Source: an uncultured Alphaproteobacteria bacterium (lineage in GTDB: Bacteria; Pseudomonadota; Alphaproteobacteria; RF32; CAG-239). From it: 64,000 nucleotides of DNA. The notes below the pieces were generated by a model. The model worked only from the letters and a program-made list of their open reading frames with translations. It ran no database searches and was not told the DNA's origin. Positions 14,603 through 17,948 of the stretch are shown here, piece after piece. A program made the position numbers and the translations under genes. Each line of letters opens with the position of its first letter. The stretch's first letter is position 1. The stretch is taken from assembly GCA_944391615.1 (NCBI GenBank), contig CALXUE010000005.1:1-64000 (forward strand), given 5' to 3'.

Positions 14603-15955
14603 TTAGTTTTTCGTTATGGAAACGCTAAATTCGTCGCCTTCCAAAGATGTTGTCATTTGGCAATTATGAAGGGTGCTGATTTTTTCTACAATCGACAAGC
14701 CTAAACCGCTTCCCGTCACACTTTGGCCTGCCGGTCTGAAAAATCTTTCGCCCAAACGCGACAAATTCTTTTTATCCAAGCTGACCTTGTTGTTGCTGAC
14801 GATTAATTCTTTGTCATTCAACTCTATCTTTATTTTAGCACCCTCTCCGGAATATTTTATGGCATTGTCCAACAAATTTCTCAGTAACAGCGAAATTAAA
14901 AGTCCATGCCCCTCTTTTAGAAAATAGGGCTCTTTAATCTTTGTTTCTATCTCTATCTTCTTGCTTTTTGCCGCCGATTTTTGTTCTTCTATCTCATTAT
15001 TTATGGCTTTATGCCAATCCAAAATATCAAAATTTTGATATTGCTGAGTATTGGCCTCCAATCTGGATAAGGCCAGTAACTGTTCTACCAACCTTGAGGC
15101 TCTTTCCAGACCTTTTCCTAAATTTTGTAATGCTTTTTCATGCGCAGCCTTATCATCATAAGCTAGTTCGGCGACTTCAAGCTGAACTTTCATCGCGGTT
15201 AATGGACTTCTTAATTCATGGGCAGCATCTGATATAAAACTTCTCTCTCTGCTTATCATTTTTGAGATACGATCAAACAAGCTATTCATCGACACGATTA
15301 AAGGTTTTATTTCTTGCGGGGCAAAATTTTCTTTTAACGGAGATAAATCATCTGCGTCTCTTTTTGATATGTTCCTAGTTATTAACTTTAGCGGGTTGAG
15401 CTCCCTGTTCACGAGCAATATAATGGCTAAAAGCATTATTGCTAAGCCGATTAACCATGGCGTAACCGCCTCTTCAACCATTTCAACCGCAGCCTTATTA
15501 CGATATTTTAATTCTTGTCCGACTGCTATGGTAAAGTCATTATCTACTGTTTTCATCCAGATAATTCGCCACAGCTTGCCTTTATGCCCGCTCGGCTGGT
15601 TTACGAATCCCGATGCATATTGATTATAGGTGAAATATTTGCCATCTTCATCATCATGAAATATCATTTTGCCATTCTTATCAAAAACGGCAAAGCCTAA
15701 GGCTTCATCTTCATCTTCCCCGTCGTCATCGAGTTCTTCAACCAGCGTATTCACTCTTGCCTGTGTGCCCGGCTTGATGTTACTCCAATCTGCCGCTGAC
15801 AGTTGGCGCGCCAAATGTAACTGATAGGTGTCATAAAACTCATCAACATATTCCCTACTCTCATACCACGAAAGGGCAGCCGAGCCGCCCCATATGCCGA
15901 TTGACACTAAACAAAATGATAATATTAATCTGAATCTTAAGCTTTTTTTTATCAT
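14603..15955 (-). CDS. qseC: Sensor histidine kinase, QseC/PmrB-like
   Basis: The 450-residue protein has a membrane helix at about 10-30, a periplasmic sensor region at about 31-162 and a second helix at about 165-182. A HAMP-like linker, the H-box AAHELRSPL (His246), and a C-terminal ATPase domain with NLLDNAIKYS and GSGLGLSIV follow. It would autophosphorylate and pass phosphate to the response regulator encoded just upstream. The sensor region contains a striking acidic run (EELDDDGEDEDE, residues 73-84), reminiscent of acidic metal-sensing segments in PmrB. The start overlaps the regulator stop by one base (TAATG). Gene order ygiW-qseB-qseC supports the QseC assignment, though PmrB-like sensing is equally possible. 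Confidence 0.88.
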   Translation of the reverse strand: MIKKSLRFRLILSFCLVSIGIWGGSAALSWYESREYVDEFYDTYQLHLARQLSAADWSNIKPGTQARVNTLVEELDDDGEDEDEALGFAVFDKNGKMIFHDDEDGKYFTYNQYASGFVNQPSGHKGKLWRIIWMKTVDNDFTIAVGQELKYRNKAAVEMVEEAVTPWLIGLAIMLLAIILLVNRELNPLKLITRNISKRDADDLSPLKENFAPQEIKPLIVSMNSLFDRISKMISRERSFISDAAHELRSPLTAMKVQLEVAELAYDDKAAHEKALQNLGKGLERASRLVEQLLALSRLEANTQQYQNFDILDWHKAINNEIEEQKSAAKSKKIEIETKIKEPYFLKEGHGLLISLLLRNLLDNAIKYSGEGAKIKIELNDKELIVSNNKVSLDKKNLSRLGERFFRPAGQSVTGSGLGLSIVEKISTLHNCQMTTSLEGDEFSVSITKN

Positions 15956-16628: not shown

Positions 16629-17003
16629 TTATTTTTTAGAGATGGAATCTACATCAACTTCTACGTTCATGAAATCTTTGTCGATTTCGCCTCTGATTTC
16701 AACCGTATCTTTTTCACTGACGGTTAAACCTCTCCAATCTTCGTTGTCTATCTCAACAGTGATTGAATCAGTTCCATCTTGGAACATATATTTTTCGCCG
16801 CCTAAGCTCTTAACAATTTTACCTGTCATAACTACCGGTGTATCATCACCCAATTTTTTAGCTTCGGCAACGCTGACCGTGTCAATTGTCGGACCAGTAA
16901 AGCCGCCTTGCGCCGGCGTAGTTCCAACATAACCACCTTGTGCCATTGCTGTGCCGGCAAAACCCATAAGGGCTAAAGTTGAAATTGCGAAAAATTTTTT
17001 CAT
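16629..17003 (-). CDS. ygiW: YgiW/YdeI-family periplasmic OB-fold (BOF) stress protein
   Basis: The 124-residue protein has a signal peptide ending AMA-QGG. The BOF domain contains VSVAEAKKLGDDTPVVMTGKIV, LGGEKYMFQDGTDSITVEID and an EIDKDFMNVEVDVDSI end, the usual layout of YgiW/VisP/YdeI. Such proteins are small periplasmic oligosaccharide- or cationic-stress-related factors; the exact ligand here is unknown. A good AAGGAG site precedes the ATG. It is the first gene of the operon with qseB and qseC, 17 bp apart. The glycine-rich stretch after the signal (QGGYVGTTPAQGGFTG) is a short imperfect repeat. Confidence 0.9.
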   Translation of the reverse strand: MKKFFAISTLALMGFAGTAMAQGGYVGTTPAQGGFTGPTIDTVSVAEAKKLGDDTPVVMTGKIVKSLGGEKYMFQDGTDSITVEIDNEDWRGLTVSEKDTVEIRGEIDKDFMNVEVDVDSISKK

Positions 17004-17078
17004 TACGGTTCTCCTTAAAATTATATCTCATTAAAGTTAATCTGTATCTGTTTTACATCATCATATCAACATTGTAAA

Positions 17079-17095
17079 CTTAAGGTTCGCTTAAG
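17079..17095. promoter_or_regulatory. PmrA/QseB-type direct-repeat box
   Basis: CTTAAG-GTTCG-CTTAAG gives two half-sites 11 bp apart, 76 bp before the ygiW start. On the minus strand it directly abuts a TTTACA that could be the -35 of the operon. PmrA and QseB boxes are direct repeats of CTTAA-type half-sites with this phasing, so autoregulation by the QseB-like protein is likely. Confidence 0.55.
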
Positions 17096-17123
17096 GATAA
17101 AAAAATTTTTTATTTTTTTATTG

Positions 17124-17152
17124 TTGACACAATTTGACAAATAAGCTATCTT
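17124..17152 (+). promoter_or_regulatory. Promoter of the 17175 gene
   Basis: TTGACA (17124-17129), a 17-bp spacer and TATCTT (17147-17152). The expected transcript begins about 16 nt before ATG 17175. The sequence resembles the promoter at 25793-25820. Confidence 0.6.
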
Positions 17153-17174
17153 TCTTTTTAGAACTTTAATTTTT

Positions 17175-17948
17175 ATGTATATGGAATTATTTGTATTTAT
17201 TTCAATTATGGTTGTAGCCATTGCTTTGGCGTGTATTCTTATCTATATCCGCCACTGTGCAAAAACGCAAAAAAAAGTCGATCACTTGTGGATTTGGCTG
17301 GCTGGAATTGCTATTATTGTCGTCTTAATCTTATTTTGGACGGAAAAGTCTCGTCTGCATGCATATACGACTTCAAGTTTTTGTGTGCAAACTCCAATTC
17401 CTGCTAAGGTTGATAATGCCGAATCTTTTGATTTGGCCGTTAAAAAAACTTGTATTGCTCAAACTTATCTTAAAGGTATCCCTGCGGATTTAGAAGCTTC
17501 TAATCCTGGCGATATTCTTCTTGAACAAGTTAATGCTCAAAAATCTGACTTTCTGGCTCTGGTGCCTCAAAATCTGGATTCAAATCAGATTATGAGCTTG
17601 TTCCTTGCTTATGATAAATTAGGCAATGAAGCGTTCAAAAAACAAATGGCTCAGCATTCCCTCTCCGACTGGGAAATCGAAAATGTCGGCTCTATCTTTT
17701 TTGATATGGCCGAATCCTTTCCTTCAAGCAATAGAGAGGAAAACCTCAAATATTTTTGGGTGTTGTTCCACCTCTATATGGGAACTATTACTTGGGATGA
17801 TGTGTGGGATTTTCCCATAAAGTCTTATCTTAACTTGGATGTGGATGAAATATACATCAATGACTATCCAACTTGGGATGACAAATTTATCGACACCCTC
17901 TCCAGAGGATTTTTATATTCCTCCCATGAGGCTGGAATTGTCTTCTAA
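17175..17948 (+). CDS. Membrane-anchored protein of unknown function, 257 aa
   Basis: I do not recognise this protein. It has an N-terminal hydrophobic helix (about 4-25), a short basic loop with KTQKKVDH, a second helix (about 38-56, IWLAGIAIIVVLILFW), and a soluble, acidic, helical domain of about 190 residues. The domain contains FDLAVKKTCIAQTYLKG and a Trp/Asp-rich end (TITWDDVWDFPI, DYPTWDDKFIDTLSRG). There is no Shine-Dalgarno sequence; an ATG two codons later is an alternative start. It has its own promoter and terminator, so it is monocistronic, and it is divergent from the ygiW operon. Confidence 0.6.
   Translation: MYMELFVFISIMVVAIALACILIYIRHCAKTQKKVDHLWIWLAGIAIIVVLILFWTEKSRLHAYTTSSFCVQTPIPAKVDNAESFDLAVKKTCIAQTYLKGIPADLEASNPGDILLEQVNAQKSDFLALVPQNLDSNQIMSLFLAYDKLGNEAFKKQMAQHSLSDWEIENVGSIFFDMAESFPSSNREENLKYFWVLFHLYMGTITWDDVWDFPIKSYLNLDVDEIYINDYPTWDDKFIDTLSRGFLYSSHEAGIVF

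Follow-up and report, generated by a model that had tools for sequence, protein, structure and literature searches.

A CTTAAG-N5-CTTAAG direct repeat upstream of a ygiW-qseB-qseC operon in an uncultured alphaproteobacterium is very probably the site bound by the operon's own regulator, as judged from its sequence, position, and conservation. On our reading, to which we give a probability of roughly 0.85, this box would be an operator for QseB control of ygiW-qseB-qseC, with head-to-tail binding of the regulator and positive autoregulation of the operon. The box lies in a 64-kb window, which is the whole stretch of DNA analyzed (64,000 nucleotides), and the features discussed here are collected in Table 1.

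The letters at window positions 17079-17095, whose coordinates are exact, are CTTAAGGTTCGCTTAAG. The operon is encoded by the minus strand; in its sense the box reads CTTAAGCGAACCTTAAG and stops 75 nt short of the ygiW ATG. Because each CTTAAG is palindromic, the box is an inverted as well as a direct repeat and can be read as a box on either strand. Boxes of the PmrA/QseB class consist of two half-sites of the CTTAA type, repeated directly at an 11-bp phasing; the PmrA part of this definition is taken from the published literature. The box in the window has two such half-sites, in direct repeat and with this phasing. An earlier note on this DNA had proposed a direct repeat of this regulator class here, and the proposal is borne out: the repeat is real and exact, and it is the sole exact CTTAAG-N5-CTTAAG in the window (shuffle mean of 0.01, with one match in one of 100 dinucleotide shuffles) and in the organism's own 1.57-Mb genome. 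Matches with up to three mismatches number 29 in the window versus 31.8 expected. Because these looser matches show no excess, it is the exact site, together with its conservation, that carries the claim.

Table 1. Features of the ygiW-qseB-qseC region, in window coordinates (window A+T content, 60%)
Feature	Position	Strand	Remarks
QseB/PmrA-class box, CTTAAG-CGAAC-CTTAAG (operon sense)	17079..17095	-	exact and unique in window and genome; upstream of ygiW in 46/46 regulator-bearing family genomes
Box half-sites	17090-17095 and 17079-17084	-	CTTAAG each
A-then-T tract upstream of box (operon sense)	17098..17110	-	at least 12/13 A/T in 43/45 aligned promoters
Putative promoter block downstream of box	17053..17078	-	fixed register to box
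TTTACA	17078-17073	-	directly downstream of box in operon sense
TGTTGATAT	17071-17063	-	part of promoter block
TGTAA	17057-17053	-	part of promoter block
Shine-Dalgarno-like AAGGAGA	17010..17016	-	read from sequence
ygiW, BOF/YgiW-family protein, 124 aa, probable signal peptide (by eye)	16629..17003	-	PF04076 4e-28, NF033674 5e-37, both over cut-off
qseB, OmpR/PhoB-type response regulator, 218 aa	15955..16611	-	PF00072, PF00486; best NCBIfam model QseB
qseC, sensor histidine kinase, 450 aa	14603..15955	-	PF00512, PF02518, PF08521; best NCBIfam model QseC

The regulator is called a QseB orthologue by tree and synteny, not by the NCBIfam model. Its score against the NCBIfam QseB equivalog is 286 bits, below the cut-off of 345, yet this is still its best model; the PmrA model gives 235 bits, which places the protein nearer to QseB. 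The qseC product scores 470 bits against the QseC model (cut-off of 475), with the kinase domains present. Compared with the E. coli proteins, 123 of 219 aligned positions are identical in QseB (56%), and 176 of 457 aligned columns are identical in QseC. In a midpoint-rooted tree of 103 regulators, a sample that included no Pasteurellaceae and no experimentally studied PmrA, the window's QseB belongs to a clade of 24 rows (100/100) that contains family members, four other members of the class, and three uncultured relatives. This clade is nested in a 99/97 group of 30 rows together with enterobacterial QseB. The two closest named relatives among the matches listed are "uncultured Alphaproteobacteria" records, at 75 and 65% identity, which lends indirect support to an alphaproteobacterial origin of the window. 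Inside the window's own lineage, the tree departs from taxonomy: QseB of genome G023, from the window's genus, groups with that of G246, from another family, which could reflect gene exchange or mislabeled taxonomy.

The domain structure and residues of the regulator agree with this call. QseB has a receiver and a winged-helix domain, the phosphorylatable Asp, and DNA-contacting residues. Receiver residues D51, D8, D9, T79, and K101 are all present. Seven of the 10 DNA-contact residues named for Klebsiella PmrA are identical in the window's QseB, and the other three are replaced (R210 by N, R171 by K, and T187 by S); the 10 residues come from a published model in which Klebsiella PmrA was docked to DNA.

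The sensor kinase differs from most of its family relatives in one short stretch. Residues from about 145 to 155 of QseC (gene at window 14603-15955) form a juxtamembrane stretch, VGQExxYR. A D or E precedes the Y/F-R pair in 38 of the 46 family members, as in E. coli (EYRED); the window's own protein reads KYRNK, and among the eight genomes of its genus in the set, the position is K in six, A in one, and E in one. The Y/F-R residues are presumably the counterparts of Y149 and R150 in Haemophilus influenzae QseC. According to a review, Y149G/R150T in that protein abolish the response to Fe2+. Sensing by QseC may thus be different in the window's genus.

Conservation of the box was followed through a set of 82 family genomes drawn from a larger group, with a threshold of E <= 1e-40 for the regulator. 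The regulator is present in 46 of these genomes, and in all 46, as in the window, ygiW, qseB, and qseC lie in one direction and in this order. A loose pattern, CTTA-N7-CTTA, finds the box upstream of ygiW in 45 of the 46. The strict pattern finds the same number, so the invariance of the half-sites is not due to the choice of pattern. The contig of the 46th genome stops 72 nt upstream, and an overlapping contig has the box, bringing the count to 46/46. Three further genomes of the genus all have the box upstream of ygiW, as do four members of the class outside the family, so that the location in the promoter region is conserved across orthologous operons, a comparison that the earlier note had proposed. 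That note would have given up the box if the genome held no other copy and there were no conservation upstream of orthologues. The former is true of exact boxes, and the latter is false; because both had to hold together, the lone exact box does not count against the assignment, and it fits an autoregulated system with one target. The exact pattern was found in 48 of the 82 genomes, namely the 46 with the regulator plus G029 and G076 without it, and the reversed pattern, used as a control, in three. In G001 and G016, an additional exact match lies at another place.

Beyond the family, a search of the class found the exact match in 36 of 385 genomes, three of the 36 being in the family. Of the 33 box-bearing genomes outside the family, 27 were examined, and four have ygiW-qseB-qseC behind the box. 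One more has a regulator of 45% identity directly behind it, without ygiW; one has a regulator/kinase pair at a place other than behind the box; another shows no more than a regulator match of 24%; and 20 have no relative within 1.5 kb of the box. Named relatives were sampled as the best 80 listed. A search of the 900 nt upstream of the regulator in these relatives gave an exact CTTAA-N6-CTTAA in 18 and the reversed pattern in none. No exact CTTAA-N6-CTTAA was found upstream in the other 62 of the 80 listed, most of which are other regulators of the wider class. All eight listed relatives with an adjacent ygiW have the box, five of them divergent enterics and three uncultured organisms with the operon order, and two listed relatives with a BOF gene more than 1.5 kb downstream have none. 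In E. coli K-12, the corresponding sequence between ygiW and qseB is CTTAACAACTTCTTAAG. The PmrA/QseB-like regulators of Bosea, Brucella, and Methylorubrum (L169, L182, and L184) have the exact CTTAAG-N5-CTTAAG 53-71 nt upstream; they are 44-46% identical to the window's QseB, no adjacent ygiW was found for them, and they stand elsewhere in the tree.

The sequence around the box is conserved as well. In a gapless alignment of 45 family promoters, the spacer of the box is CGTTC in 20 and of related forms in the rest, TG occurs at +24/25 in 44, and TGTAA, in full or with four of its five letters, occurs at +38 in 35. The A-then-T tract upstream of the box, beyond which conservation drops, may be an UP element or a bend. 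The ATG lies anywhere between 50 and 126 nt from the box, while the register of box and promoter is fixed. Box and promoter therefore appear to shift as one block, as expected for an activator that touches RNA polymerase. The candidate -35 that the earlier note had placed next to the box is presumably TTTACA; it does adjoin the box, but over the 45 promoters it is conserved only as about TTTnnA. A scan with the sigma-70 consensus gave no minus-strand pair that uses TTTACA as its -35, and no fixed position stands out as a canonical -10 in the aligned family promoters. The promoter and its -35 and -10 are accordingly given as putative. The IHF consensus core was found in only four of 46 upstream regions and is not a shared feature; IHF is reported for Aggregatibacter in a title cited by a Klebsiella paper. 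The intergenic region that holds the box is shared with a divergent plus-strand gene (window 17124-17948), which encodes a protein of 257 aa that has a hydrophobic stretch near its N terminus and matches no Pfam or NCBIfam model. A TTGACA-17-TATCTT pair at 17124-17152 is listed with this gene as lying just upstream of it.

In the mechanism that we infer, which extends to binding, phosphorylation dependence, activation over repression, a -35/-10 pair, co-transcription, and a signal, phosphorylated QseB would bind the box as a head-to-tail dimer, with one winged-helix domain on each CTTAAG. The 11-bp phasing would put both domains on the same face of the helix, and bound QseB would help RNA polymerase at the weak promoter directly downstream. 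The operon would in this way be under positive autoregulation, and its main output would be YgiW, a secreted OB-fold protein. The literature on relatives offers parallels. QseB of Glaesserella is reported to bind the promoter of the ygiW-qseBC operon that encodes it, whose three genes are co-transcribed. A review describes the H. influenzae ygiW-qseBC operon as autoregulated and responsive to Fe2+, Zn2+, and cold, with D51 of QseB required for ygiW transcription on FeCl2. Other papers report that PreA of Salmonella raises ygiW and that Klebsiella without QseC strongly overexpresses it. The latter effect may be read as QseB being left active, an interpretation that is in part our own.

QseB might instead bind the box to repress the operon, or might do so in one phosphorylation state. 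Such a role would suit a site close to the promoter block, and a published model for Glaesserella has phosphorylated QseB repressing capsule promoters. We consider this unlikely, given that the box precedes the conserved promoter block instead of covering the start, and that in the relatives described above ygiW or the whole operon is reported to be activated, the rise of ygiW upon loss of QseC in Klebsiella among them. An assignment of the box to another, PmrA-like regulator of the OmpR/PhoB type appears very improbable. Its appeal comes from the related regulators of Bosea, Brucella, and Methylorubrum, which have the same exact box, and from the PmrA boxes of Salmonella and Klebsiella, which the literature describes as two 6-bp half-sites arranged head to tail and 5 bp apart, CTTAAG followed by NTTAAT. 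The window's box differs from the described PmrA second half in having CTTAAG in both halves and is therefore symmetric. Against this assignment, the exact box tracks the QseB-like regulator, being present in 46 of 46 genomes that have it versus two of 36 that do not, and both of these exceptions are hairpins followed by T-runs.

Those two exceptions, G029 and G076, and the ability of CTTAAG to pair with itself raise the question of whether the palindromic repeat could be an RNA hairpin or a terminator, for which we see hardly any likelihood. The box lies between divergent genes and has a T-run directly after it on neither strand, and the spacer and the promoter block keep a conserved register. 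A terminator scan raised no flag, but its rule of three G-C pairs can hardly be satisfied here. That the repeat arose by chance in A+T-rich DNA has a negligible probability: although the window is 60% A+T and loose matches are as frequent as expected, 0.01 exact matches would be expected in the window, and conservation at the same place in 46 of 46 genomes rules this explanation out. Binding by QseB, with activation of its own operon, is the reading that we retain.

The scan for further direct repeats that the earlier note had called for yielded no second exact box, and near-matches that lacked an excess specific to the spacing. With up to two mismatches, N5 gives 68 sites in the genome, including the operon box, N8 gives 84, and N3 gives 87, versus 48, 40, and 57 for the respective reversed-pattern controls. 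Every spacing thus exceeds its own control, and because the right spacing yields the fewest sites, the excess is attributed to composition rather than to a regulon. A wider regulon was rejected on this ground, near-matches being no more common at the right spacing than at the wrong ones. CTTAA-N6-CTTAA occurs at six places beyond the two readings of the operon box (two for the reversed pattern), and CTTAAG-N5-CTTAAG with one mismatch occurs at two sites. Of these eight sites, four are inside open frames, one overlaps a frame start, and three are intergenic, before frames that resemble lgt and mraZ by eye and at an arsC-like site. Eleven genomes of the genus have 24 one-mismatch sites besides the operon box versus 20 control sites. 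Judged by sequence, the regulon appears to comprise a single operon, with one strong site per genome; a few weak sites are possible.

One of the weak sites was noticed after looking through the hits. It is a one-mismatch box at C17:30978-30994 (L086) in the window's own genome and recurs in G008, G463, G064, and G080. A one-mismatch box is thus present upstream of arsC/marC-like genes (by eye) in five of 11 genus genomes, with a sequence that differs between them; it is absent in three, and in the other three the region is out of view. This site is possibly a second QseB target, although a weak candidate. BOF/YgiW-like genes also occur outside the operon, at C8:52035-52334 in the window's genome and in many family genomes. 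A BOF gene is present in 77 of 82 family genomes, including 31 of the 36 without the regulator. Across the 82 genomes, no exact box was found on the contigs of BOF genes other than the operon's. In eight paralogue regions, no site with up to two mismatches precedes the BOF paralogue, and the lone site (in G064) is about 2.4 kb away.

The earlier note took the gene order to be well known in enteric bacteria, which is not supported: ygiW is divergent from qseBC in E. coli K-12 and, according to the Klebsiella paper, likewise in that species. Co-transcribed ygiW-qseBC is reported for Glaesserella and H. influenzae, and for Aggregatibacter through a citation in the Klebsiella paper. These Pasteurellaceae systems (FirRS/QseBC in H. 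influenzae) have the same three genes in the same direction and order as the window, and the self-binding of Glaesserella QseB and the autoregulation in H. influenzae add to the likeness, which covers gene content, order, and regulation; they differ in belonging to another lineage. The E. coli system shares the exact CTTAA-N6-CTTAA between ygiW and qseB and differs, apart from gene orientation, in having CTTAAC in place of CTTAAG at one half-site. The broad regulons described in the literature for E. coli and for Salmonella (PreAB) are a further difference. A literature search, largely outside subscription journals, found no paper on QseBC or ygiW in such bacteria. The box class, the regulator, and the operon type are already known, and CTTAAG is the described first half of PmrA boxes; what is new is the lineage, the invariance at the level of single bases, and a regulon that appears to have one site.

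These results place a module best known from enterics and Pasteurellaceae, together with its operator, in an uncultured family of Alphaproteobacteria, and the conservation is high enough for the operator to be specified at each base. These small genomes have almost no other exact box, so that the family offers a clean natural case for a minimal QseBC regulon, whereas in Salmonella the question of QseBC targets is blurred by overlap with PmrAB. We tentatively suggest, while holding it short of probable, that QseBC here forms a closed circuit with one output, in which one strong QseB site per genome sets the level of YgiW and of the system itself. If this is true, control of YgiW would be the core job of QseBC, and the broad virulence and motility regulons of enterics would be later additions or indirect effects.
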